From an uncultured Phycisphaerae bacterium (lineage in GTDB: Bacteria > Planctomycetota > Phycisphaerae > UBA1845 > Fen-1342): a stretch of 64,000 nucleotides of DNA. Location of the stretch: contig CALGJV010000026.1 in assembly GCA_937928595.1 (NCBI GenBank), forward strand, positions 62,001 through 126,000. Direction: 5' to 3'. Of the stretch, positions 15,365-55,827 are shown in pieces. The position numbers and the translations under genes are program-made. Position 1 is the stretch's first letter. Each line of letters opens with the position of its first letter. The notes beneath the pieces are model-generated. The model was given only the letters and a program-made list of their open reading frames with translations. It had not been told where the DNA came from and did no database searches.

Positions 15365-15370
15365 TACAAT
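15365..15370 (+). promoter_or_regulatory. Possible -10 box
   Basis: TACAAT lies 41 bases before the ATG of the large secreted protein. The -35 region is poor. Confidence 0.25.
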
Positions 15371-15410
15371 GCGGCGGGGCGCGCGGCAGCGCGCCGACGC
15401 GAGGGACGCC

Positions 15411-18400
15411 ATGCGGCGCGAGTGGTGCCGGATGCGGTGTGGAGCGGCGGGCTGGATCGTCGCGGCGTTCGCGTGTGCGGCCCCGGCGGACGCGCCGCCG
15501 CCGCGGGACTGGTCGCCGGCGGTGAGCGCCGCCCGCGCCGCCTACGAGGACGGGCGCTACGACGACGCGGCCGGCCTGCTGACGCGCGTGCTGACGGACC
15601 CGCCCGACGCCGCCGCCCGCCGCGACGCCGAGCTGCTCCAGGCCCTGTGCCTGCTGCGGCAGCCCGAGCGCACCGAACGCCTCAGCGGCCGCGGTCTGCT
15701 CGCCCAACTCGCCCGCGCCGATCCGCGCCTGCACGACGACCCCGACTGCCTGCTCGCGTACGGCGTCGCCCAGACCGCGCTGGCCGAGACCGGCAGCGCG
15801 CTCGACGCCCTGGCGCGCGCCGCGGACGGCTTCGCCGCGCAGCATCGCCCGGACGCGCAGCTCGCCGCGCTGGCCGCGCTCGCCCAGGCGTGGGCCGCCC
15901 ACGGCGAGTGGTTCGCGACGCCGGCCCGCTTTCGGGTCGATCCACCGCGCGACCCGGCCGAGGCCGACGCCATTCGCGGCCGGCAGATTGAAAGAGTCCG
16001 CGCAGAGGCCGCGGCCCTCCCCGGCAGCGACGCCATCGTGGCCGCGATCGACCTGACGCTCGCCCGGCACCGACTGAAGCAGCCGGAGACCGCGGACGGC
16101 AGTCGGACACTCCTCGAGGCGCTGGCGCAGCGTTCCACCCCCGCCGAGACGGCCGCCGAAGCGGCGCTGGTGCTGGCGCGCCTGGCCGACGACGCAGGCC
16201 GGGCGGCCGATGCGCACCGCTGGTACGGCCGGGCGGCCGACGTCGGGTCCGGCCGCACGCGACAGGAGGCGCTAGAGCGCATCGCAGCGTTGTCCCGGCC
16301 GGAACTGACGGTGGCCGCGCTCGAGCCGGTCGGCAGCGAGGCGGCCGCGCCGCTGGACGTGACGGCGCGCGGCCTGGTGGCGGTCCAGCTCGAGGTGCGG
16401 CGGATTGACCTCGACGCATGGCTGGCCAGGCCGACGCAGCGCGGAAACGAGGCACTGCTGCCGGAGTCCGGGTCCGTGGCACTCGCACGCGAATTCCAGC
16501 CTGGCCAGTCGCTCGCAACCGCCTGGCGCAGCGCCGCACTCACCCCTCCGCTTGCGTTCCGCGGACCGCCGGGCGCTTACGCGGTGATCGCCCGCGGGCG
16601 CACGGCGGAGGGCCGGGAAGTGACGGCCAAGCGCCTGCTGATCGTGAGCGACCTGCTCGGCATCGCGTGCGTGGGACTGGAGGAGGGCGCAGTCTTCGGG
16701 CTGCCGCGGCCGGCGGCCGCCGCGCCGCCCGACCTCGCGGCGCTGACCGGGCGCTTCTGGATGTACTCGTCGTTTGCGCCCACGGAAATCCCGATGACCG
16801 CGGGCGCCGGGCTCTTCGCGCTGCCGCCGGAAGCGCGGGTCGCGCGGGAGCGTCGCTGGGTGTGCCTGTTGCGCGCCGGCGCGCACGTCGCGCTGTGCCG
16901 GGGCGAACTGCCGGACCCGGCCGCGGCCGAGACGCGCGATGCCATCTTCTTCGCCGCGCCGGCGGAGGTCGCGCCGGGCGGATCCGTGGCCGTCGCCGGC
17001 TGGATCGCGCCGCCGCCGGACCCGGCCACGGCGACGCCGCCGGCTCCGCAAGCCGAGCTGGTGGACACGCTCGAGCGCGTGTTGGCCACCGCGCCCCTGA
17101 CGCCCGACGTCGGCGGGGGGTTCGCCGTCCAAGTGCGCGTGCCGCCGGACACCGTGCCGCAGGCGCTGCGCGTCTTGCTGCGCGCGAGCGGCCGCAGCAT
17201 AGAGAACCTCGCACCGCCGCAGACGATCCGCGTCCTCGCACCCACCGGCGCGGCCCGGCTCGAGTGCGACCTGCCGACCCTGAGCACCGCCGATCAACCC
17301 GCGCCGCGCGCGGCGCCGGTCAGCGCGGTGTGGGCGTGGGGTGCGCCGGCCACGCTCCGCGGCGGCCGGCTCCGCATCAGCATCCACACCCCCACGCCCG
17401 TGCCGGGTGACGTGTGGTCGCTGCCGTTCGCCAGCGCCGCGCAAGCCTTCGCCGCGCACGACCGCGGCTGGACGGCCGACCTGTCCGCCCTCGATCCGAC
17501 GGGGCAGGCGCGCCTGCTCGAATGCGGGCTCGAGCTGACGGGCTGGCTGGCCGACGGTCGCAGCGCGCGGCGGCTCGCAAGCTGCGCGGTCCAGAATCGA
17601 TCGGCCGGCGCGCCGCCCGCCGCCGCGGAAGACCCGCTGCCGCGCTCGGCGGTGGAGTTGTCGGCGCAGCTGCGCACCGACGAGAGGCCGCCCTTTGTGG
17701 ACCTCGAGGCCCGGACGCGCGACGGACGCCCGGTCGCCGTGCTTCTCGAAGGCGGCCGATTCGTGCAGGCACTCGTCGGGCCACCGAACACCCTCGAGCA
17801 CCTGCGCGTGCCGCTTCCGGCCGGCGTCTCGGCGGCAAACCTGCGCCTGCACGCCTTCGTGGCGGAGAGCGACCGGGTCACGCGGGTCATCCCGCGCGCC
17901 GTCCGTCCCCCGCCGAGCCCCGGTCCGAGCCCGACCGTCGCAATCGAGCGGGATGCGCTGTGGGGCGACGCGCGGCTGCGCATCACGTGGGATCCGGCGT
18001 GTCCGCCCTCCGCGCACGAAGCGTTGCTCATCCGCGTCGCCGAACTGCCCACGGAGCGCTGGCGGCCGCCGTGGGCCGGGCGGGTACCCGACGCACCCGC
18101 CGTGGCCGCGTCGTTGCCGCTGTCCACGCAACTCGCGGTAAACGACGTGGACTGGCCCGAACTGCTGCCGACGCAGCGCTGGCGCGCCCTGGCCGGACCG
18201 ACCGCGTGGTGCGCGGCCGTCCCGTTGCCGAAGGGGACGGGCGAGCTGTCCGTACCGCTGCCGGAGGCGCGCTGCACGCAGACCGTGTCGCTCTGGCTGG
18301 TGAACCGACACGGATTCGTCGGCGACGCGAACATCAGGGTGCCCGCTGCACCCACCGGCGCTGCGTGGCTCGACGTCCCGCCCCGCTGGACGGTCGGCGA

Positions 18401-19247
18401 CCGCGGCCGCGTCACGCTGGGCCTCACGCGGCCCGCCGGGGCGGCGCTGACGGCCCGCGTGTCCGTCGAGGGGGGCGAGTTACTGGCTCTCGAACAGCTC
18501 CGGTACCGCACCGGGCTGACGGGCGACTGGCAGCTCTGCGCTGCGGACGGCGTTGTCCCGCTGGCCGCCGGCGCGACGACCTGGATCACCGTCGAGGCCG
18601 AAGCCGCCCGACCGGGCTCGGGCAGCGTCCGCCTGACCCTGGAGCCGGTGGAGGGCGACGCCCACACCTGGTCCGCACCGCTCGAGATCGCGGCCGCGCC
18701 GGGCGGCACGGCGGCCACCGACGCGCTCGAGCTGCGGCGCACGATCGAAGTTTGGGTGCCGGAAGACAGTGCCAACCCCGCGCCGCCGCTGACCATTCCG
18801 ACGGACGAGCCGCGACCGGGGCCGTCGGGCACGCCGGCCGGCTCCTCGTCGCCGCCGGCCGCGACGCGTGCCGCCGCGGGAGCGTGGGTGCCGGTTCCGC
18901 CGGGCCGTCCCGTGCCGCCGGAACGTTACCTCCGCGTTCGTGAGGAGTTCGAGCTGCGCCGGTCGGACGGTCTGATCGTCTGGACGCAGCCGCTGCCGCT
19001 GACCTGCACGAGCCTGGCAGCCGACCCGCCCGAGTGCCCGCCCCTGGGCCGCCGCGTGCTCGGCCCCGCGGAGCGGCTCCAGTACCGGCTGCCGTTGCTG
19101 CCCCCGGGCACGCACCGACACGCGTATGTGCTGCTCACGACGCGAACGGGCAGCGGCCTGCTGCCGCCGCCCGAACTGCGGCTGAACGACGTCGCGCTGC
19201 CGGTGCGCGTCGCGCCCGGCGAGACCCGGCTCACCGTGCAGCCCTGA
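15411..19247 (+). CDS. Large secreted protein, alpha-2-macroglobulin-like
   Basis: From the ATG at 15411 (GAGGGA upstream) the product is 1278 residues with an N-terminal signal ('GWIVAAFACAAPADA'). Residues up to about 300 are TPR-like helices. The rest is a string of beta-sandwich modules. Several resemble the macroglobulin domains of bacterial A2M: 'AVQLEVRRIDLDAWLA', 'GAYAVIARG...LLIVSDLLG', and 'VPPRWTVGDRGRVTLGL', the usual entry to the A2M core. I find no CxEQ thioester and no terpenoid-cyclase helical domain, so it would not trap proteases covalently. An Ala/Pro linker precedes the last domain. It probably acts outside the cytoplasm; the A2M link is inference from motif style and needs a profile search. 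Confidence 0.6.
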   Translation: MRREWCRMRCGAAGWIVAAFACAAPADAPPPRDWSPAVSAARAAYEDGRYDDAAGLLTRVLTDPPDAAARRDAELLQALCLLRQPERTERLSGRGLLAQLARADPRLHDDPDCLLAYGVAQTALAETGSALDALARAADGFAAQHRPDAQLAALAALAQAWAAHGEWFATPARFRVDPPRDPAEADAIRGRQIERVRAEAAALPGSDAIVAAIDLTLARHRLKQPETADGSRTLLEALAQRSTPAETAAEAALVLARLADDAGRAADAHRWYGRAADVGSGRTRQEALERIAALSRPELTVAALEPVGSEAAAPLDVTARGLVAVQLEVRRIDLDAWLARPTQRGNEALLPESGSVALAREFQPGQSLATAWRSAALTPPLAFRGPPGAYAVIARGRTAEGREVTAKRLLIVSDLLGIACVGLEEGAVFGLPRPAAAAPPDLAALTGRFWMYSSFAPTEIPMTAGAGLFALPPEARVARERRWVCLLRAGAHVALCRGELPDPAAAETRDAIFFAAPAEVAPGGSVAVAGWIAPPPDPATATPPAPQAELVDTLERVLATAPLTPDVGGGFAVQVRVPPDTVPQALRVLLRASGRSIENLAPPQTIRVLAPTGAARLECDLPTLSTADQPAPRAAPVSAVWAWGAPATLRGGRLRISIHTPTPVPGDVWSLPFASAAQAFAAHDRGWTADLSALDPTGQARLLECGLELTGWLADGRSARRLASCAVQNRSAGAPPAAAEDPLPRSAVELSAQLRTDERPPFVDLEARTRDGRPVAVLLEGGRFVQALVGPPNTLEHLRVPLPAGVSAANLRLHAFVAESDRVTRVIPRAVRPPPSPGPSPTVAIERDALWGDARLRITWDPACPPSAHEALLIRVAELPTERWRPPWAGRVPDAPAVAASLPLSTQLAVNDVDWPELLPTQRWRALAGPTAWCAAVPLPKGTGELSVPLPEARCTQTVSLWLVNRHGFVGDANIRVPAAPTGAAWLDVPPRWTVGDRGRVTLGLTRPAGAALTARVSVEGGELLALEQLRYRTGLTGDWQLCAADGVVPLAAGATTWITVEAEAARPGSGSVRLTLEPVEGDAHTWSAPLEIAAAPGGTAATDALELRRTIEVWVPEDSANPAPPLTIPTDEPRPGPSGTPAGSSSPPAATRAAAGAWVPVPPGRPVPPERYLRVREEFELRRSDGLIVWTQPLPLTCTSLAADPPECPPLGRRVLGPAERLQYRLPLLPPGTHRHAYVLLTTRTGSGLLPPPELRLNDVALPVRVAPGETRLTVQP

Positions 19248-45677: not shown

Positions 45678-46478
45678 ATGAGGAAGTCTTGTGTGATGGC
45701 GCTGTTGGTGGCCCTCCTGGTGCCGATGGCCGCCGCCGACACGTGGATGGGACGGCTCTATGGTGGCATTCACCCGTCGGATCGGCCGGAGATCTCGACG
45801 ACCGACCACGTGCAGGGGCAGGTTCCGGCCGTCGGCGGCAAGGGCTTCCACGGCGCCACCCCGCCCGGCGGCGAGGTCAGGCTGACGGACGGCACGACTG
45901 CCGGCGTGGTGAACGCCGACTTCGGTGCGCACCTGGCGACGATCATCACCTTCGAGGACACCCTGAACAACTTCACCCCCACCGTCGTGGAGCGTATCCG
46001 CAGCTTCGGCGGCAACCCCGACACGCGCAACTGGCAGAACCTCGTGGTCGAGTGGAAGAACGCCCAGGGCGTCTGGACGCGCTTCTTCGCCGACAGCCCG
46101 AGCTTCGGCCACATGTACGCCACGATCACCGGCAGTGACGGCAACCCCCGTTGGGGCGAGAACATCGCGGTCGAGTACCCCTCGGCCACGCAGTCGCTGA
46201 TCGAGATCTACAACCCCAACGGCGGCCTGCTGGCGGGCGGGGCCATGATCTACGGCCTCCGCTTCAACTACTGGCTAGTCTCGTCCTGGGGTTCGCAGAT
46301 CCTCCCGGGCAAGGAGGAGTTCGACCTCGGCTTCCAGCCGACGCCGGCCGTCCCCGGCCAGCACCCCGGCTACGCCGACGTCACGGGCTCGATCATCCAG
46401 GAGATCGACGTGTTCGTTCCCGAGCCCGCCAGCCTGCTGCTCCTGGTGAGCTGCGCCGCCCTCATCCGGCGTCGCTGA
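45678..46478 (+). CDS. PEP-CTERM sorting-domain protein
   Basis: The 266-residue secreted protein starts MRKSCVMALLVALLVPMAAA, a clear signal peptide; ATG 45678 has GAGGAG six bases upstream, and ATG 45672 is an alternative. The middle is beta-rich with aromatic and Gly/Asn turns and no known catalytic motif. It ends 'VPEPASLLLLVSCAALIRRR': the PEP motif, a hydrophobic stretch and a basic end, the signal cut by exosortase for attachment to the surface or export into an exopolysaccharide layer. No exosortase gene is in the window. A terminator hairpin follows. Confidence 0.88.
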   Translation: MRKSCVMALLVALLVPMAAADTWMGRLYGGIHPSDRPEISTTDHVQGQVPAVGGKGFHGATPPGGEVRLTDGTTAGVVNADFGAHLATIITFEDTLNNFTPTVVERIRSFGGNPDTRNWQNLVVEWKNAQGVWTRFFADSPSFGHMYATITGSDGNPRWGENIAVEYPSATQSLIEIYNPNGGLLAGGAMIYGLRFNYWLVSSWGSQILPGKEEFDLGFQPTPAVPGQHPGYADVTGSIIQEIDVFVPEPASLLLLVSCAALIRRR

Positions 46479-46637: not shown

Positions 46638-46997
46638 TCAGAGCGTGATGACCTTCTCCGCCCCGTCCAGCACGCGGATGATCTCGTCCATGTTCGACAC
46701 CGGCCCGACCGCGGGCTGCACACCGAACGCCTCCAGACACGTCCCGCACGGCAGCAGCTCGACCCCGTGCTCGTGCAGCGCGCGCAACTCGGCCAGCACC
46801 GGCGAATCCGCCGCCACGAGCCGGACGCCCGCGTTCACCAGCACGATCGCGGTGACAGTTTGGAACGCGACCGACTTCCGCAGAAACGTCGCCAGGAGCC
46901 GGCGGCCCAACGCCGCATCGCCGTGCCCCAGCCCGTCATGATTCAGCAGAACGACCGTTCGCATATCAAGCAACTCCCGTTTCGCGGCCTCGTTCAC
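46638..46997 (-). CDS. DsrE-like protein
   Basis: The 119-residue protein is a DsrE/YchN-fold protein close to the C-terminal domain of YedF ('VVLLNHDGLGHGDAALG', 'LLPCGTCLEAFG', 'VSNMDEIIRVL'). The conserved cysteines in LLPCGTC are typical; DsrE-fold proteins carry or sense persulfide sulfur. It is the last gene of the multiheme operon: its GTG start overlaps the stop of the 23-heme cytochrome by four bases. ATG at 46962-46964 is an alternative with GGGAG upstream. The link to the redox complex suggests sulfur chemistry or sensing, which is inference. Confidence 0.85.
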   Translation of the reverse strand: MNEAAKRELLDMRTVVLLNHDGLGHGDAALGRRLLATFLRKSVAFQTVTAIVLVNAGVRLVAADSPVLAELRALHEHGVELLPCGTCLEAFGVQPAVGPVSNMDEIIRVLDGAEKVITL

Positions 46998-49570
46998 TGC
47001 GCCGCCGACGCGCCCGCCGGCACGGTGTTGCGCACCCGCGCATCATGGAAAAACAGGAACTTATTGCGGGCCTCGACCCCGTGGCAGGCCGTGCATACGT
47101 TCGGCGCGACGAACGGCCGCACCTGCGCCCGCAGCGCGTGCCGCTGCTCGGGCGTGAAGTCCGGGTTCTGCTCGAGCACTTTCAGCAGGTCCAGCCGGCC
47201 GTGCGAAACGTGGCACGTGCGGCACACGACCTGGCCCTGCGGGTCCTCGCGCCCGTCCGGACCGAACAGCGGCAGGTAACCCGGCTCGCCGGCCTGCTTG
47301 ATGTTCATCATCGGCATCTTCGGATGCGCGATGAACCGCCGCAGCGGCGCGGGGCCGTCGGCGTGGTGGCAGGCCATGCACGGCAGGCACGACTCGCCCT
47401 CGAACCCGGGCACGTCGTCGCACCGGCCCTCGAGGAAGCGCGGCGAAAGCATCTGTCCCCACGAACCGTCGGGCGCCGCGTGCATCGCGTGGCACGGCCG
47501 ACACGAGTCGGCCTCGAACCCGACCGCAGCGAGCTTTTCCGCCGAGTGCCCGGTGTGCCGGATGTACTGCTTCTCGACGTGGCAGTTCAGGCACAACGCC
47601 TGCCCCGGCTCGCCCGGAGCGACCCGCGCCAGGTGCGCCGGCTGCGCCCCGGCGTGCGGATCGTGGCAGGTGCGGCAGCCGAGCCGCAACGTGCCCGTCT
47701 CGTCCGTCGGCACCAGCGCCAGGTTCACGCGCGACGCCTCCGGGTTGATCCGCTGCGGATGGAGGGCCGCGACGGCCGAGTTCGCCTGCCACGCGGTATC
47801 GACGTGGCACGACAGGCAGACGTCGTCGTGGTTGCCGACCGGCTCGGGACCGCCCACGCGGAACAGGTCCGCCCGGTCGCCGCCATGCGGCACGTGGCAC
47901 GGCAGGCACGGCCCGTGCTGCGCCAGCGCCGCCGCCGCGGGCGTCAGCGCCGCCGGGGCCGACGCCGCCGGCCGGCCGCGCAAGAAGCGCGTCAGATCGT
48001 GCGGCCCGCCCACCAGCCGCGCCGCGTCCGCGTGGCACGTCTGGCACAGCTCGGCCGCCGGCCGCGCCAGGAACTGCCCGTGACGACGGCTGTGCGGATC
48101 GTGACACCCGGTGCAGGCCGTCTGAGGATGCATCGCCCCGCCGACGACCTTCGCCTGCCCGCATTCGCCGCTGCGGTGGCAGTTCACGCAGGTGCCGGTC
48201 GGATCGCCGGGCCCGGGCACCGCCGGCCGCCCCGGCCGGTGCGCGAGGTGGCACGCCCCGCACGCGCCGCCGTCCGTCGGCGTCAGGCCCGCCGCGTTCG
48301 CCAGCCGCGGAAAGTTCGTCCGCAGGTCGTGCGGCGTGCCGAAGACGCCGGCCGTCTGCGGGTGACACGCGACGCACGCGTCGCCGTAGTGCGGCCGGTC
48401 CGCCAGCAGCTTCGCCTGGGGCGCGCCGCCGTGCACGCGGTGGCACGAGAGGCACAGCAGCTCGCCGCCCGGACCGACGCGGCCGTTCCAGCGGGCCACC
48501 ACCGCGCGCTGCTCCGCGTCGAGCGGCGGGCTTTGCCCGTGTCGCGGCAGGCCGCCGTGCAGCGTGCCGGCCGCGAGGGCCTCGGCGTGGCACTTCAGGC
48601 ACAGCTCGTTGCGGTCGCGCGGGAGGCGGAGCAGTCGCTCGTGGCCGGCCTCGTGAACCGCGTGGCAGGTGAGGCAGGTCACGTCTGTACCCGGGTCGTG
48701 CGGGCCGGTGCGGAGTTCGGCCGGTACCGCCTGGGCCGTCGGGCCGAGCGGGTGCATGCCGCGGGCGGCCCCGTCGGCGAGCCCGGCGTGGCAACGGATG
48801 CAAAGCTCGGCGGCGGGCTGACGCAGAAACTCGCCGTGCGTGGCGTCGTGCGGGTTGTGGCACTGGAGGCAGTGCGACTCCGGGTGCTCCATCGTCGTCC
48901 GCGGGTGGCCCGCGGCGACCTGGTACGCGCGGTGGCAACTGAGGCAATACCCGTCCGGATCCAGCGGCGACGGGATGATCTCACGGGCAAAGCTGTGGGC
49001 CAGATGACACGCGCTGCACGGCCCCGCCTCGCCGGCCGTCTGGCCGAAGCGGTTGCGCTCCTGGGGGGCCGAGACGCGCAGATCGTGCGGCGTTCCCTGG
49101 GCGTAGTGACCGGGGTGGCAGCGCTGGCACAGGCCGCTGTCCGCCAGCGACACCGCCAGCATGTAGCCGGTGCCGTCCACGCCGAGCCGGTGGCACGACA
49201 TGCAGATGAGCGTGTCGCCGGGGCCCGCGACGGTGCCCATCTCGCGAATGGCGGCCCGCTGCGTCTCGTTCAGCACAACGTTCTGCGAGTGTCCGCGCCG
49301 CACCTCCAGGCCGCCGGCCGCGGGCGCCACCTGCCGGTGGCAGGCCAGGCAGTAGATGCTGCTGCCCGGGTCGTGCCAGTCCACCGGTTCGATCGCCGGC
49401 GGGACGACCGCCGCCCGCGGTTGCCGCCACTGTCGGACGTACGGGACGGCCGCCGCCAGCACGGCCACCACGGCGCCGCTCAGTACGAGCGTCTGAACGC
49501 CCCACGCGACGCGGTCGAGCACGCGCGCCACGGGGCGCGGACCGGGGGGCAACGGGGCGGCCCGGCTCAT
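46994..49570 (-). CDS. 23-heme cytochrome c
   Basis: The 858-residue protein is anchored by one N-terminal membrane segment ('VQTLVLSGAVVAVLAAAVPY') and otherwise lies outside the cytoplasm. I count 23 CxxCH heme motifs, from CLACH to CTACH, many paired with later histidines (CHDPH, CHVPHGG), as in doubled-CXXCH families. Internal duplication is clear: 'GEFLRQPAAELCIRCHAG' and 'GQFLARPAAELCQTCHAD' are near copies. Such proteins are electron wires. ATG 49568-49570 overlaps the stop of the NrfD-cytochrome fusion gene (ATGA). In the Hmc complex of Desulfovibrio the corresponding subunit has 16 hemes, so this is larger. Confidence 0.92.
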   Translation of the reverse strand: MSRAAPLPPGPRPVARVLDRVAWGVQTLVLSGAVVAVLAAAVPYVRQWRQPRAAVVPPAIEPVDWHDPGSSIYCLACHRQVAPAAGGLEVRRGHSQNVVLNETQRAAIREMGTVAGPGDTLICMSCHRLGVDGTGYMLAVSLADSGLCQRCHPGHYAQGTPHDLRVSAPQERNRFGQTAGEAGPCSACHLAHSFAREIIPSPLDPDGYCLSCHRAYQVAAGHPRTTMEHPESHCLQCHNPHDATHGEFLRQPAAELCIRCHAGLADGAARGMHPLGPTAQAVPAELRTGPHDPGTDVTCLTCHAVHEAGHERLLRLPRDRNELCLKCHAEALAAGTLHGGLPRHGQSPPLDAEQRAVVARWNGRVGPGGELLCLSCHRVHGGAPQAKLLADRPHYGDACVACHPQTAGVFGTPHDLRTNFPRLANAAGLTPTDGGACGACHLAHRPGRPAVPGPGDPTGTCVNCHRSGECGQAKVVGGAMHPQTACTGCHDPHSRRHGQFLARPAAELCQTCHADAARLVGGPHDLTRFLRGRPAASAPAALTPAAAALAQHGPCLPCHVPHGGDRADLFRVGGPEPVGNHDDVCLSCHVDTAWQANSAVAALHPQRINPEASRVNLALVPTDETGTLRLGCRTCHDPHAGAQPAHLARVAPGEPGQALCLNCHVEKQYIRHTGHSAEKLAAVGFEADSCRPCHAMHAAPDGSWGQMLSPRFLEGRCDDVPGFEGESCLPCMACHHADGPAPLRRFIAHPKMPMMNIKQAGEPGYLPLFGPDGREDPQGQVVCRTCHVSHGRLDLLKVLEQNPDFTPEQRHALRAQVRPFVAPNVCTACHGVEARNKFLFFHDARVRNTVPAGASAAQ

Positions 49571-51618
49571 GGTCGGCCCTCCGGGCGGGTCGTCGCGGCC
49601 GGACGCGGCACGGGCACCGCGGCGGGCGCGGACGGCTGACTCCGCATGGCGTCGGCGGACACGTGTCCGGGCGGCATCGGCACATACGGGGCCATGCGCC
49701 GATGGTCGGTGTCCTGGAACTCGCGGTGACAGACGTCGCAGCGGTCGAACTCGGCATAGCGCTCGGGGGCGCGGCGCGCCAGGTCCGCATGACACCGGAT
49801 GCACAGGCCGTGCATGGCCTCCATGTAGCCGGGCGCCCGGCCGACCAGCTTCCGTTCGACGGTGGGGATGATGGAGCCGCGGACGACCATGTCGCCGTGG
49901 CACTCGTAGCAGGCCAGCGCGGTGTCGCGCGAGCGCCGGTCGATCTCGGGCGAGTGGCAGACCGTGCAGCCGCGGCTGTCGCTCAGCTTGCGAATGTGCA
50001 GGGCGTGGTCGAACGTGTCGGTCACTTCATACATGTCGCGGTGACACTCGTAGCAGGCCGAGTGCTGGTCGAAGGTCATGTTCTGGTGGTGGCAGAGCCG
50101 GCACGATTCCTGGTCGCCCAGCGCCGCGATGTGGTCGTCGTGCGTGAACGGCACAAAACGCCAGTCGCGGTTGCCGTCGACGACCAGGACGCGCGTGGCC
50201 ACGGGCTCCGCCGCGCGCGGCACGTTGCCCGCCAGACTCGACACATGGAACGAGCGGCGCAGCGGCGGCGGCGCCGGCGTCGCCAGCGCCTCCAGCGACC
50301 GGGCCAACCGCACGGGGGTCGGCCGCGGACGCGGCCCGAACAGCGCATCCTCGGGCAGGAAGCCGACCGCCAGCGCGGCCGCGATCACGAACGCCAGCGA
50401 GTGGCGGCGCAGCGCGGGCGTGTAGAACCCCGGCCCCTCCGGCGTCGGCGCCGCCGGCCGGGACGCCGGGACGGGCTCCGCCGGCCCGTGCTCGTCGACG
50501 ATCCGCAGGTTCTCGTTGAAGAAGATGAACACCAGCACGGCGCCGGCCACGATGCCCACACTCACGGCCAGCTCGGTCCACGTCGGCCAGTACGGCATGT
50601 TCTCCGGCCGATCGAACGCGACGATGCAGATGTTGAAGCGGTAGCCGATCATGCCGAACACGACCAGCGTGGCCGCGGTCGCCAGCCCGGGAACGCTGTG
50701 CCGCACGCGCGGGATGAACAGCAGCACGGCCGGGATCACGGCGCTCAGCAGCAGCTCGAGCAGGAACAGGCCGGCCTGCCACGAGCCGTCCAGCGCCTCC
50801 GGCAGAATGCCGCGCCGCCACAGGTCGCCCATCCGGATCACCACGTACAGCGGCAGGACGAACGCCGCCACGCGACCGAGGCCCGCCAGCAGATCCGTTC
50901 GCACGCGATGTCCGAACAGCCAGGCCGAGAGCAGCGCCTCCAGCGTCACCATCATCAGGCCCAGCCCCACCGCGGACACGAAGAACAGCACGTACAGGAT
51001 CGGGCTGTACCACAGCGGATGCACGCGGAACGGCTGGATGAGAAACAGCGAGCCGAGCGACGACTGGTGCAGCGTCGACAGCACGATGCCCGCGATGACC
51101 AGCGGGATCGTGATACGCTTGATGAACTGCAGCAGGCGCTGGAACACCGGCCGGTGAAAGAGCGGGTGCTCGAGAATGGCCGGGCTGAACTCCAGCGACA
51201 GCACCGTCAGGTACAGCATCACGCACATCGCCACTTCGAACAGCACCGAGTGGTGCTGCGGGAAGACCATCGGGTGCCAGATGTGCCACGGAATGCCCAG
51301 GTCGTAGAGCAGGCCCACCGCCACCGCGATGTAGCCCAGCAGTGCGGTAAGAATCGCCGGCCGCGCGAAGCCGTGGTAGCGCTCCAGCCCGAAGATGTAC
51401 ACCGCGGCCGCGATCACGAACCCGCCCGCCGCCAGGGCCACGCCGGCCATGACGTCGAAGGCGATCCAGAAGCCCCAGGGCGCGACGTCCGTCAGGCCGC
51501 TCGTGGCGCCGATGCCGTGCCCGAAACGCGCGACCGTCACCACCGTCCACACGCCGATGCACGCCCAGAGGAGGGTCTTGACCCGCTCGAGGTTGGTGCG
51601 CCCGACCGTCGGCTGCAT
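49567..51618 (-). CDS. NrfD-like membrane subunit fused to a hexaheme cytochrome c domain
   Basis: The 683-residue protein joins two modules. Residues 1-370 are a polytopic NrfD/HmcC-type quinone-interacting membrane protein (about ten helices; 'GLTDVAPWGFWIAFDVMAGV', 'HPLWYSPILYVLFFVSAVG', 'FNICIVAFDRPENMPYWP'). After a further helix comes an extracytoplasmic tail with six CxxCH motifs: CRLCH, CYECH, CTVCH, CYECH, CIRCH and CDVCH, arranged like a class III cytochrome. The fusion would pass electrons between quinone and heme wires in one chain. It starts one base after the ferredoxin-subunit stop and overlaps the next gene. Confidence 0.92.
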   Translation of the reverse strand: MQPTVGRTNLERVKTLLWACIGVWTVVTVARFGHGIGATSGLTDVAPWGFWIAFDVMAGVALAAGGFVIAAAVYIFGLERYHGFARPAILTALLGYIAVAVGLLYDLGIPWHIWHPMVFPQHHSVLFEVAMCVMLYLTVLSLEFSPAILEHPLFHRPVFQRLLQFIKRITIPLVIAGIVLSTLHQSSLGSLFLIQPFRVHPLWYSPILYVLFFVSAVGLGLMMVTLEALLSAWLFGHRVRTDLLAGLGRVAAFVLPLYVVIRMGDLWRRGILPEALDGSWQAGLFLLELLLSAVIPAVLLFIPRVRHSVPGLATAATLVVFGMIGYRFNICIVAFDRPENMPYWPTWTELAVSVGIVAGAVLVFIFFNENLRIVDEHGPAEPVPASRPAAPTPEGPGFYTPALRRHSLAFVIAAALAVGFLPEDALFGPRPRPTPVRLARSLEALATPAPPPLRRSFHVSSLAGNVPRAAEPVATRVLVVDGNRDWRFVPFTHDDHIAALGDQESCRLCHHQNMTFDQHSACYECHRDMYEVTDTFDHALHIRKLSDSRGCTVCHSPEIDRRSRDTALACYECHGDMVVRGSIIPTVERKLVGRAPGYMEAMHGLCIRCHADLARRAPERYAEFDRCDVCHREFQDTDHRRMAPYVPMPPGHVSADAMRSQPSAPAAVPVPRPAATTRPEGRP

Positions 51619-51619
51619 G

Positions 51620-52450
51620 CTAGTGTCCCGTCGCGCCGGGGCCGCCCGCCGCCCGCTGGGCCGCCTCCGCCTGGAGCTTCATCCGCCGCCCGATGATCCA
51701 GTACACGCCGGACATCGCGGCCGCGACGCCGAAGATCACCGGCGGCACCTTGCTCAGCGCGGCCCAGGTCAGCGCGGGCAGCGGCTCGTCGCCCAGGTTC
51801 GGGCGCCAGCCGAGGAAGCTCAGATCAATGTCCGAGATGTACAGCACGCAGGTGCCGCCGACCTCGTGCTCGCCGTAGATCTCGGGGCCCGACCGGCCGG
51901 GCGGCGTGAAGTACTTGCCGGGCTCGGCGGCGAAGCGGCGCCGCGCCTCGGCCAGGAGCGCGTCGCGCCGTCCGAAGATCGTCGCGCCGTAGGGGCACGC
52001 CTCCGTGCAGGCCGGCTGTCCGCCGGCCTTGAGGCGGTCGTAGCACAGGATGCACTTCCGCACGAGCGGAACCTTCGCCTCCCACGAATACCGTGGGATG
52101 CCGTACGGGCAGGCCATCATGCAGTACCGGCAGCCCATGCAGCGCTTCTCGTCGTAGATCACGGGCCCCAGCTCGGTCTTCCGCAGCGCGCCGACGATGC
52201 ACGCCGAGGCGCAGGCCGGCTGGAGACAGTGGCGGCATTGCTGCCGCACGAACTTGCTGCCCGGCCGGCGGATGATCGTGGTGAAGCGGCTCGACGACAG
52301 GTCGTCAATCTTCTGCTTCCAGCGCCAGGCCCGGTCCGGCGGCAGGTTGTACGTGCGCTGGCACGCGTGGACACAGGTCTCGCACCCGGTGCAGCGCGTC
52401 GTGTCAGTCAGGATGGCGAACATCGGGTCGCCGCGGTCGGGAGTACTCAT
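51620..52450 (-). CDS. 4Fe-4S ferredoxin subunit with membrane tail (HmcB/DmsB type)
   Basis: The 276-residue protein has four cysteine clusters typical of DmsB/HybA/HmcB: 'CTGCETCVHAC', 'CRHCLQPACASAC', 'CMGCRYCMMACPYG' and 'CILC..ACTEACP', giving room for four 4Fe-4S clusters. The C-terminus has a single transmembrane helix ('VPPVIFGVAAAMSGVYWII'), as in HmcB-like and HybA-like subunits. There is no Tat signal, so the clusters may face the cytoplasm. ATG 52448-52450 overlaps the upstream cytochrome b stop by four bases; ATG 52421-52423 is an alternative. Confidence 0.9.
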   Translation of the reverse strand: MSTPDRGDPMFAILTDTTRCTGCETCVHACQRTYNLPPDRAWRWKQKIDDLSSSRFTTIIRRPGSKFVRQQCRHCLQPACASACIVGALRKTELGPVIYDEKRCMGCRYCMMACPYGIPRYSWEAKVPLVRKCILCYDRLKAGGQPACTEACPYGATIFGRRDALLAEARRRFAAEPGKYFTPPGRSGPEIYGEHEVGGTCVLYISDIDLSFLGWRPNLGDEPLPALTWAALSKVPPVIFGVAAAMSGVYWIIGRRMKLQAEAAQRAAGGPGATGH

Positions 52451-53187
52451 GTCGTCAGATACCTCGCGGCGGCCTCGGACGGCCGGGGCGGCGGCTCGGG
52501 CCGCCAGCCCGCCCCGGGCACGATCGTCGTGATGCGCGTGTGGGTGTACGAAAGCAGCCGCGCAAACGGCACCAGCGCCAGCACCACCACAGCGCTGAGC
52601 ACGTGCAGCAGCAGCGTCGTGTGGTAGTCCAGCGGGCTCCACGTCGGGTGCCGCGCCAGCACGCCGGTGAAGAACGGCACCAGCAGGATCAGCGGCTTGA
52701 AGAAGGTCCACGCCGGCTCCACCGCCCGCAGCAGCGGCGAGTACAGCCGGCCCAGGAACAGCACGAAGCCCAGCGTGATCGTCAGCACGGCGCACGCGTC
52801 CGCCACCCGCCCCGGCAGCGCCGGCCATGCCAACCCCAGGCCCCGCTCGAACAGGTACACGTGCGCCACCATGAAGGTCGGCACGAGCACCACCCCCAGC
52901 CGGAACAGCAGCGAGACCCCGCACAACGCCAGATGGTACGCGTACAGCCCGCGGCTGCGGAACGGCCGGGCCTCGTCCGCCACGAGCGTCGGCGCAACCT
53001 GCCAGACCAGCCGCTGCCGCACCTTGCGCCAGAACTCGCCGCGGTCCGTGCAGGTCAGCCAGCCGCCGACGAGATCCGCCAGCGCCAGGAGCAGGGTGCG
53101 GAGCACTCCGAGGATCGCCAGGGCCAGCGCGAAGCGCACCAGCGGTCCCTGCGCGACATCGAGCGCGACGCGCATGCCCGGATCCAC
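52447..53187 (-). CDS. NarI/HmcE-like membrane cytochrome b
   Basis: The 246-residue protein has about five transmembrane helices and resembles the gamma subunit of respiratory nitrate reductase and its Hmc/Dsr relatives. Likely heme-b ligands are histidines in 'YAYHLALCGVS', 'TFMVAHVYLF' and 'DYHTTLLLHVLS'. The start is a GTG with AGGAG six bases upstream; ATG at 53173-53175 is an alternative. It is the first gene of the five-gene redox operon. Such subunits exchange electrons with menaquinone. Confidence 0.85.
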   Translation of the reverse strand: MDPGMRVALDVAQGPLVRFALALAILGVLRTLLLALADLVGGWLTCTDRGEFWRKVRQRLVWQVAPTLVADEARPFRSRGLYAYHLALCGVSLLFRLGVVLVPTFMVAHVYLFERGLGLAWPALPGRVADACAVLTITLGFVLFLGRLYSPLLRAVEPAWTFFKPLILLVPFFTGVLARHPTWSPLDYHTTLLLHVLSAVVVLALVPFARLLSYTHTRITTIVPGAGWRPEPPPRPSEAAARYLTT

Positions 53188-53477
53188 ACGCGACTCCTCG
53201 CCGGGCCGTCCGCCTCGTCCGCACTCCCCTCCCCTGCGTCGGCGGCATCCCGGTCCGCGTTCAATCCAGCAACATTGTCCGCGCGCGACGCGGACTTCTC
53301 AAGGGATATATCAGCAAAAAGCGGAACCGCCCGACGTCGTTCGCCGTGTCCGAAGCGCAAGCAAGGCGCGGCGGCCGCGCCGACCCGGCCCGTTCGAAAC
53401 CCGGAGGGTTCCGGCGAGCCGGGCCGCAGGCAGCCGCCGCGCCCGAGCGTGGTCAAGCCAAACGGGAGCCTGTGTGC
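53188..53477 (-). other. Leader region of the redox operon
   Basis: 290 bp between the chemoreceptor and the cytochrome b gene, same strand. It holds a perfect 7-bp inverted repeat GTCCGCG/CGCGGAC (53277-53295) and an AT-rich GATATATC (53305-53312), possible -10 material on the minus strand. No good -35 is visible. Confidence 0.35.
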
Positions 53478-55679
53478 CTACCAGTCCTTCAACTGCTCAG
53501 TGCCCTGATCCGGCTGAATGTCCCGCGCGGCGTGCGTCGCCGGTGCGACCGTCTGCTTCCTGGCCTTCGGCGCGGCCGCCGGCTGCGGGGCCGGCGCGTG
53601 CTCCGCCGGAGCCTGCGCGCGGGCGGCCCGCACCATGCCCAGCAGCCGGGCCAGCGCGTCGGCGGCGTGGGCCACGCCTTCGGCCTGCTCGCGCATCTCG
53701 TGCACCACCGCCGCGGACTGCTCGGCGCCGGCCGCGTTCGACTGGGTGACCTTGTCGAGCTCGGTCATGGCGGTGTTGATCTGGTTGACGCCCTCGGCCT
53801 GCTGCCGACTGCTTTCGGCGATCGCGCGGACCAGCTCGGCGGACCGGGCCACGTCGGTTCCGATGCGGCCGAGCGCCGCGGTGACCTGGTCGGCGACACC
53901 GGCGCCGTCGCGGGCCCGACCCGCCGCCTGCTCGATGAGCGTGGTGGTCTCGCGCGCCGCCGTGGCCGCGCGCTGGGCGAGGTTGCGGACCTCCTCCGCG
54001 ACGACGGCGAAGCCCTTGCCGTGCTCCCCGGCGCGGGCGGCCTCGACCGCCGCGTTCAGCGCGAGGAGGTTGGTCTGGAACGCGATCTCCTCGATGACCT
54101 TGATGATCTTCTGGATCTCGCGCGAAGAGTCGTTGATGGCGGCCATGGTGGCGTTCAGCCGCTGGACGGTCTGCTCGCCCTCGCCGGCCGCGGCCCGCGC
54201 CTGCTCGACCAATTCCGCGGCCTGGCCGGCGCTCTCCGCGTTGCCGTGGGTCGTGGCCGAAAGCTGCTCCAGCGCGCTGCTGGTCTGCTCGAGGGCGGCC
54301 GCCTGCTCCGAGGTCGACGACGCCAGCTGCGTCGCGGCCGAGTTGATCTGGGCGGCGGCGTTCGCGGCCGCTTCGGAGCGCTGGGTGAGGTCCCGCGCGA
54401 TGCGGCTGACGGGCCCCGTGATGCTGCGGGCCACGAGCAGCGCCACGAGGGTCGCCAGCGCCGTGATGCCCAGGCCCACGCCGCTGCTCCAGGCGATCAC
54501 CGCGCCCAGCGCGTGCCGGTTCGCGTCGCCGACGGCCTGCATCGCGGTCGCCGCCACCTGCTCCATCTCCTTGACCGGCGCGGTGAACTCGTCCATGTAT
54601 GTGCCGATGCCGATCACCCAGTCCCACGGCGCGAAGTAGACGATCTTCGCGACCTTCTCGCGCGGCGCCGGATCGTCCTTGTTTTTCCACGGATAGCGGA
54701 TCTCGCCGATCTCACCGGGCTTGAGCTTGAGCGCCAGCTCGCAGATGTCGCGGATCACGTAGCGCCCCGCGGCATCCTGCACGTCCCAGACGTTCTCCCC
54801 GTCGCGCTTGCCGCCGGCCGAAACCACGTAGTGGCCGCGCGTCGGGCCGGTCGCGTTCAGGATGTATACGTAGCCGGTCCGGCCGATCTTCATCCGGTAC
54901 AGGGCTTCGCGCAGCGTCCGCGTGCTTTCCTGCGGCACGCCCACGTACACCATGCCCACGACCTCCCCGGCCGCGTCGCGCAGCGGCTCGTACGACGTGA
55001 TGTACCAGCGGTCCACCACGAACGCCCGTCCGGTGTACGTTTCGCCCGCCAGCACGGCCTTCACGACCGGGTTCGGCCGGCCGTCGGGATCCGTCGCCGG
55101 AATGAACGTCCCGATCGCGCGCGTCCCGTCCGCCTTCTGGACGTTCGTGCACACCCGGAGCATGTCGCCGGCCGGGTTCATGCGCTGGAAGATCGTGCAC
55201 GTGTCCCCGGTGAGTTCCCGCACGTAGTCCACGATCGGCGCCGGCTCGGACGCGCTCTGGACCGGCTCGATCACCGTGTCGCCGAATTGCAGCTTCGGCA
55301 GCGCGACCGTCACCTTCTCGCCGGTGAACTGGTTGGCGGCCTGCCACTCGAACGTCGCGTCAGGCCGCTTCAGCGGGCCGGCCCGCCGCAAAGCGTCCTG
55401 CGCCGTCTTCAGATCCGCCGCGAGCTTCTGCTCCAGCGTCGTTTGCTGCACGGCGCACAAATTGTAGAGAATGCCGGCCTGGTGCGTGAGGTCTTCCAGG
55501 CTCGCCTCAGTGAGCGCTTGCGCCGCGTGTTGCGCGACCTCCTGGAACCCCTTCTCCGCGTCGGCGCTGCCCCGCTTGAAGCCGCTCGACGCCTGCCAGA
55601 GGCAGATGACCGCCACGATCACAACCGGCAACGTGGCCAGCGACAACTGCGAGACGAGGACCTTTTTTCCCAAAGTCAT
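53478..55679 (-). CDS. Methyl-accepting chemotaxis protein with double-Cache sensor
   Basis: The 733-residue receptor has an N-terminal membrane helix, a long periplasmic double-Cache domain (Cache_3-Cache_2 type: '[20 protein letters not shown]', '[20 protein letters not shown]', 'GVPQE' turns), a second helix at about 410-435 with a HAMP-like segment, and a cytoplasmic coiled-coil signalling domain with the hallmark hairpin '[23 protein letters not shown]' (quoted part [18 protein letters not shown]). An Ala/Pro linker leads to a short C-terminus. Ligands of this Cache type are often small organic acids. ATG 55677-55679 has GGAGG eleven bases upstream. It lies upstream of the redox operon on the same strand. 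Confidence 0.93.
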
Positions 55680-55827
55680 AATTCCCGACACCTCCGGGTG
55701 CTACCGGCGCGGCAGACGCCCGCCACGGCGCGTGGACGCGCGCGCACGTCACGTGGGCAAGCGCTTCTTCCGCTGGGCGGCATAAGTACCACCTTTCTGG
55801 TAGTCCTTCGGCTCGTGGCGTCTCATT

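Follow-up and report, generated by a model that had tools for sequence, protein, structure and literature searches.

The Hmc complex (HmcABCDEF) of Desulfovibrio and Thermodesulfobacterium has a transmembrane, quinone-linked layout in which HmcB-, HmcC- and HmcE-type subunits are encoded together with a large multiheme cytochrome. What Hmc-type complexes do, and in which direction they work, is still uncertain, as stated for HmcC (PMC6303296). The Nhc complex (NhcABCD) comprises a multiheme cytochrome, a subunit with four [4Fe-4S] clusters and a ten-helix NrfD subunit, and has no CCG subunit. The Cbc4 (CbcSTU, Geobacter) and SirCD (Shewanella) complexes use an Fe-S plus NrfD-type module to pass electrons from the quinol pool to periplasmic c-type cytochromes (PMC11434368). 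Here we analyze a cluster in a 64,000-nucleotide window from an uncultured Phycisphaerae bacterium (contig CALGJV010000026.1, positions 62,001-126,000; all coordinates below are window positions). Four of its genes (46994..53187) probably encode a menaquinone:multiheme-cytochrome c oxidoreductase of the inner membrane, which belongs to the Hmc/Nhc type, would be electrogenic and would have no cytoplasmic route.

Gene cluster and its relatives

The four genes are tightly packed on the minus strand, from 53187 down to 46994, in the order narI-like, FeS, nrfD (six hemes) and 23-heme cytochrome:

52447..53187, minus strand: NarI/HmcE/TmcC-like cytochrome b subunit, 246 amino acids (GTG start at 53187; ATG at 53175 as alternative start)
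51620..52450, minus strand: HmcB/HybA-like 4x[4Fe-4S] subunit, 276 amino acids, with a C-terminal transmembrane anchor and no twin-arginine translocation (Tat) signal (NCBIfam HmcB, alignment)
49567..51618, minus strand: HmcC/HybB-type NrfD subunit (10 transmembrane helices) with an 11th transmembrane helix and a hexaheme domain, 683 amino acids (NCBIfam HmcC, six CXXCH motifs)
46994..49570, minus strand: 23-heme cytochrome with an N-terminal transmembrane anchor, 858 amino acids (23 CXXCH motifs)

The initial annotation had described five genes, the fifth encoding a DsrE protein, and all five open reading frames are found where it placed them, on the minus strand; exact motif counts agree with the 6 and 23 hemes it reported. 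It had also assigned the subunits to Hmc-like classes, and the best NCBIfam matches are indeed HmcE (2e-19) and TmcC (1.5e-21) for the narI-like product, HmcB (4.2e-69) for the Fe-S subunit and HmcC (2.3e-91) for the NrfD subunit. The HmcB match begins at profile position 37, and the HmcC match spans residues 21-377 at 307 of 550 bits. The 23-heme protein matches best the paired-CXXCH (doubled-CXXCH) and DmsE families, and has no NCBIfam match to HmcA. Apart from the generic paired-CXXCH domain, all of these scores lie under the equivalog cut-offs, so that no Hmc equivalog cut-off is reached. A profile search of the PDB with the NarI-like subunit matched Escherichia coli NarI, and a single-sequence search gave no match.

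Compared with Hmc, the cluster lacks the CCG subunit HmcF and the small HmcD. Its HmcC homologue bears a fused six-heme domain, and its cytochrome has 23 hemes in another repeat type (DmsE/paired-CXXCH) where HmcA has 16. The HmcE homologue is without both ligands of one heme b, whereas HmcE is a NarI-type di-heme protein, and the HmcB homologue retains the C-terminal tail but not the Tat signal. Nhc shares the absence of a CCG subunit and 14 key residues of NhcC; however, NhcA has 9 hemes, and neither a NarI-type subunit nor a heme fusion is part of the published composition of Nhc (PMC8076601). As in Cbc4-type loci, a single operon encodes Fe-S, NrfD and c-type cytochrome subunits with no catalytic subunit. 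The NarI-type subunit and the heme fusion are additional here: Cbc4 and SirCD have three or two subunits and a smaller cytochrome, with no NarI homologue or heme fusion reported. We found no earlier description of an NrfD-multiheme fusion in the open-licence literature.

Relatives were gathered by a contig scan plus two whole-genome searches, and the order was sampled with 114 genomes. The fused-heme NrfD is present in many metagenome-assembled genomes (MAGs) from several phyla, bearing in mind that the phylum labels of MAGs may be wrong through binning errors. The window locus belongs to an arrangement that we call form A, with the order narI, FeS, nrfD (six hemes) and 23-heme cytochrome as far as the contigs reach (L031-L036, L041, L042 and L048). 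Within the order, the form-A NrfD and the full-length 23-heme cytochrome co-occur in an identical set of 10 out of 114 genomes; in G414 the two genes lie at two contig ends. The four-gene order recurs in other Planctomycetota MAGs, as the initial annotation had proposed to check. The operon organization and the candidate quinone-linked conduit it had suggested are supported. Its description of the layout as new holds in part and has to be narrowed, because relatives with another set of partners occur in several phyla.

These relatives, form B (L037-L040, L043-L045 and L094-L098), come from MAGs labelled Planctomycetota, Myxococcota, Deltaproteobacteria, Riflebacteria and Sumerlaeota. Their NrfD belongs to the same fused-heme family (the nearest are 53-56% identical), and narI and a signal-less Fe-S subunit accompany it in the same order. 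Most are arranged as a sigma-54/PAS regulator, often a Nitro_FeMo-Co protein, CCG, narI, FeS, nrfD (six hemes), a PAS histidine kinase and response regulators. Unlike form A, they have a CCG subunit, a NarI with the ligands of both hemes and regulators of their own, and no long cytochrome was found in form-B clusters. For instance, the CCG protein of one of them (L038) adjoins NarI and matches DsrK (9e-83), HmcF (7e-63) and TmcB (8e-60). A third arrangement, form C, was found in G426 and G403 (L195:5539-10250 and L196:3264-8112) and combines FeS, an unfused NrfD and a relative of the long cytochrome with 25-26 hemes; it is a second case of an NrfD paired with a multiheme protein, in line with the reading of form A given below.

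In a maximum-likelihood tree of 41 NrfD sequences, rooted at the midpoint in agreement with the outgroup rows, the fused-heme family forms a clade with 100/99 support. Form A is a 100/99 clade within it and form B is paraphyletic. Form A is nested in form B, so it derives from a form-B-like ancestor.

Loss of the CCG subunit and of heme b ligands

The HdrD/HmcF-type CCG subunit, which the initial annotation had noted as missing, is absent both here and at all form-A loci whose contigs extend upstream of narI. No HmcF-type CCG protein was found in the operon or its neighborhood; the genome has further CCG proteins at other sites, and the one scanned matches other families better. E. coli NarI binds heme bP/bH, which is beside the Fe-S chain, through H56 and H205, and the other heme through H66 and H187 (PMC5338063, PMC11327836). 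The profile alignment to E. coli NarI in the PDB places position 96 of the window protein at H56, 195 at H187 and 213 at H205. Histidines at positions 96, 109, 180, 195 and 213 are common to form B and to HmcE of a true hmc operon (L055). In the window these sites read as follows:

52900..52902, minus strand: codon 96 (CGG, Arg), replacing the heme-bH ligand His (NarI H56); all 8 form-A sequences have Arg, whereas HmcE and every form-B sequence have His
52549..52551, minus strand: codon 213 (TCG, Ser), replacing the second heme-bH ligand His (NarI H205); Ser, Thr, Cys or Ala in 8/8 form-A sequences, His elsewhere
52861..52863, minus strand: codon 109, His kept, ligand of the periplasm-side heme b (NarI H66-like), invariant in the alignment
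52603..52605, minus strand: His195, partner of His109, aligned with NarI H187

The form-A sequences retain His 109, 180 and 195 (8/8 each). The loop charges of NarI, read from its sequence, put positions 96 and 213 on the cytoplasmic side. The two substitutions, the alignment with H56 and H205 and these loop charges together indicate that the cytoplasm-side heme has lost both its ligands. By this alignment, the ligands of the cytoplasm-side heme b are lost exactly in the form that has no cytoplasmic CCG partner, and the pair of the other heme is kept. As judged from the sequences, this correlated loss is the most informative point of the analysis. The absence of a CCG subunit is not unprecedented, as Nhc and Cbc4 also lack one; here, however, the comparison of forms identifies it as a derived loss that is matched by loss of the heme b site in NarI.

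Forms A and B thereby provide a natural comparison, with the same quinone module with and without the cytoplasmic CCG/heme-bH branch. Because they differ in this branch, its role is directly testable.

Quinone module, cytochrome wire and direction of electron flow

Two features of the NrfD subunit lie beyond its ten-helix core:

50356..50412, minus strand: 11th transmembrane helix, residues 403-421 (hydropathy; helix 405-419 in a weak AlphaFold2 model)
49699..50166, minus strand: hexaheme class III/c7-type domain, about residues 485-640 (Pfam Cytochrom_CIII, 1.6e-10)

Five plus nine key residues have been listed for NhcC, including Asp68, Asp119, Ser137, Glu141 and Ser200, and Tyr87 ... His197 (PMC8076601). 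We read the two groups as the quinone site and the half-channel on the negative side (N-side) of the membrane. All 14 are present in the window NrfD at a single offset of 13, whereas the next-best offset recovers 2 out of 14, and 12 of them are invariant over 13 form-A and form-B sequences. Qrc is electrogenic via an N-side channel, and HmcC and HybB are thought to be likewise (PMC6303296). The orientation and loop charges of the NrfD subunit are standard. With the 11th helix standing before the fused domain, the hemes are predicted to be periplasmic, and this N-in/heme-out arrangement agrees with the loops. A profile search of the PDB with the fused domain matched cytochrome c3 and HmcA structures. 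Of the two heme regions of the locus, only this domain resembles HmcA, and weakly so (9e-8). Across 11 sequences, six proximal and six further His are invariant, which fits bis-His electron transfer. The heme fusion and the 23-heme wire named by the initial annotation are both supported, and the former defines an NrfD family with hemes covalently tied to the quinone subunit.

The large cytochrome has 23 CXXCH motifs, compared with a mean of 0.2 and a maximum of 3 when the same residues are shuffled. In seven relatives (47-54% identity to the window protein) all 23 motifs and 22 other His are invariant, which fits a bis-His wire rather than an enzyme. Its sole PDB match is chain 6r2q_A, which we take to be MtrA of MtrCAB, although the match list labels it differently. 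The paired-CXXCH wire repeats are common to MtrA/DmsE-type decahemes; however, the window protein has more than twice their hemes, carries an N-terminal membrane anchor and is encoded with a quinone module rather than with a porin. The count of 22 non-proximal invariant His against 23 hemes would also allow one heme to be without a His distal ligand and thus to be an active site, as in a catalytic complex whose multiheme subunit reduces, for example, nitrite, sulfite or tetrathionate. We regard this as very improbable: only canonical CXXCH motifs occur, no catalytic multiheme family was matched in Pfam, NCBIfam or the PDB, and the unassigned ligand may simply vary.

The sequences themselves show which subunits are encoded, how many hemes they carry, that the operon and the quinone and proton residues are conserved, that ligands were lost and how form A is nested in the tree. 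From these features we infer how the complex would be assembled, which path and direction the electrons would take, and what their partner would be. Menaquinol would react at the NrfD site close to the periplasmic side of the membrane, and protons would be exchanged via the N-side channel; in keeping with this, the genome carries MqnA/MqnD-type menaquinone genes. Electrons would cross the four [4Fe-4S] clusters, the remaining heme b of NarI, or both, to the six hemes fused to NrfD. They would then pass to the membrane-anchored 23-heme cytochrome, a putative bis-His wire into the periplasm that would bring the chain to 29 hemes in total. In its descent from a CCG-containing ancestor, form A would have lost the CCG subunit (HdrD/DsrK/HmcF) together with the two histidines that bind the cytoplasm-side heme b, leaving no cytoplasmic route. 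The direction we favor is quinol oxidation, with electrons delivered to extracellular or outer-envelope acceptors through porin, NHL and multiheme proteins encoded elsewhere in the genome.

Reverse flow is rather unlikely. Periplasmic or extracellular donors (Fe(II), or cytochromes reduced by H2, sulfur or formate oxidation) would then reduce the 23-heme cytochrome and, through it, menaquinone, and protons would be taken up from the cytoplasm, as they are in Qrc. The NrfD subunit falls in the ten-helix group of HmcC, HybB and QrcD. Reduction of quinone with protons drawn from the N-side has been shown for Qrc and proposed for Hmc (PMC6303296), and the N-side channel residues are all present here. 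The genome also carries an alternative complex III (ACIII)-type cluster and a heme-copper oxidase, which could oxidize the quinol. However, the sequence does not fix the direction, and the locus has no adjoining periplasmic dehydrogenase and no donor-specific enzyme.

For quinol oxidation toward the envelope, the genome offers candidate partners. One multiheme cluster (G000:C33, L126:5323-14482) encodes a 704-amino-acid barrel-like protein (amphipathic-strand z of 3.1, a rough heuristic), an NHL lipoprotein and proteins with 4, 8, 8 and 11 hemes. A second long cytochrome, with NHL and about 20 hemes, is split over the end of contig C10 (L128:3096-7591) and the start of C11 (L127:1-1818), two contigs that overlap exactly over 141 bp. 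The heme region of this cytochrome has a relative in the window 23-heme protein (about 39-41% over some 580-594 amino acids). In relatives (L184-L194), the barrel, NHL, 11-heme, b561-hexaheme and NHL-20-heme genes are found close together, about 25 kb at most from one another, in G395, G408, G418 and G430, and in two groups in G498. This porin-like/NHL/multiheme locus, which is scattered over contig ends in the genome of the window, has the look of a conduit across the envelope and is a candidate system for extracellular electron transfer in Phycisphaerae. Given this resemblance in a related locus, an envelope-crossing role of the 23-heme protein is likely. Form A is a candidate for the inner-membrane complex through which electrons enter such a transfer route in Phycisphaerae, for which we found none established. 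A specific tie between form A and the barrel/NHL/multiheme locus was considered and is ruled out by the presence of the barrel in 91 of the 114 genomes.

Several observations weigh against an outward, cytoplasm-independent complex. The barrel locus is far more widespread than form A, at the frequency just given, and a search of the genome for an MtrB/PioB-type porin gave no match. The AlphaFold2 models of the NrfD fusion and the 23-heme cytochrome are too weak for comparing folds or estimating lengths (predicted local distance difference test, pLDDT, of 56 and 35). In NarI, His is gained at positions 85 and 216 in form A (7/8 sequences each), and the second heme b may have shifted to these residues. 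Finally, none of the form-A or form-B Fe-S sequences aligned has a Tat signal, and the cluster encodes no Tat-bearing partner.

This last point bears on which side of the membrane the Fe-S subunit occupies, together with one further feature:

51719..51775, minus strand: hydrophobic anchor at the C-terminal end of the Fe-S subunit, with a GRRMKL tail after it (hydropathy; kept in relatives)

The GRRMKL-ended anchor predicts a C-in/N-out topology, as in HybA and HmcB, and hence a periplasmic Fe-S domain. With a periplasmic-type tail yet neither Tat signal nor partner, the periplasmic placement is tentative. A cytoplasmic Fe-S subunit, which would make the complex a ferredoxin/quinone:cytochrome conduit fed by a soluble carrier (ferredoxin) via the Fe-S clusters and one heme b, seems improbable to us. 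The lack of a Tat-bearing partner in the cluster and the missing signal speak for it, as the Tat signal RRDFLK is present in HmcB of the true hmc operon and in the form-C Fe-S subunit (in G403, L196). The predicted topology, the standard NrfD orientation and loop charges and the vanished cytoplasm-side heme ligands speak against it. Moreover, a signal-less tail-anchored Fe-S protein has been assigned to the periplasm as a Tat hitchhiker, its partner being a Tat-bearing hydrogenase (PMC10924467). Signal-less tail-anchored Fe-S subunits without a Tat partner also occur in other NrfD-linked loci (L046, L047, L049, L012, L020 and L052-L054).

Taking these points together, we see an even chance that form A is in full what its sequences suggest: an Hmc-type complex disconnected from the cytoplasm, which gained a 23-heme wire, whose quinone subunit bears hemes, whose NarI binds one heme and whose Fe-S subunit is exported although it has no Tat signal itself, and which would serve as a dedicated quinone-to-envelope outlet of Phycisphaerae.

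Neighboring genes and other features

The operon is flanked by the following features:

46638..46997, minus strand: DsrE/YedF C-terminal-domain protein, adjacent to but outside the complex (TIGR03527, 8.6e-25; likely start ATG at 46964)
53188..53477, minus strand: intergenic region ahead of the operon, with one weak sigma-70-like site (53302..53274, consensus match only)

The DsrE protein, which matches the C-terminal half of YedF, had been counted as a fifth member of the complex. DsrE orthologues are found in 26 of the 114 genomes, many without form A; they lie on contigs separate from form A in G396, G409, G416 and G469, and no DsrE gene follows the 23-heme gene in form-A loci L033, L034 and L036. 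Membership in the complex is ruled out by these unlinked orthologues and, on present evidence from gene order, the linkage in the window would be a lineage-specific adjacency. The proposal of sulfur compounds as substrates had come from DsrE alone and gained no further support. Among the gene junctions previously listed, the ATGA overlaps (narI-like/FeS and nrfD/23-heme) and the 1-bp gap (FeS/nrfD) are correct, but the GTGA overlap with DsrE, which requires a GTG start, is doubtful. The ATG at 46964 (MRTVVLLNHDG..., with GGGAG ahead of it) agrees with the relatives; a start there separates DsrE from the 23-heme gene by 29 bp.

Directly upstream of the operon, on the same strand, is a Cache_3-Cache_2 methyl-accepting chemotaxis protein (53478-55691), with none beside form A in the relatives read. 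The product of a gene convergent with the operon (45678-46478) has a PEP-CTERM-like terminus (VPEPASLLLLVSCAALIRRR), and in L086, too, a gene for a PEP-CTERM protein comes after form A. Elsewhere in the genome, a Flx/HdrABC-type cluster (G000:C17, L131:3019-9734) and a Hox-like NiFe hydrogenase cluster (C7, L130:159-4823) make flavin-based bifurcation and H2 metabolism probable. ARAGORN reported a tRNA-Gly of 97 bases (18817-18913), unusual in length and position, within a 1292-amino-acid open frame on the plus strand (15369-19247).

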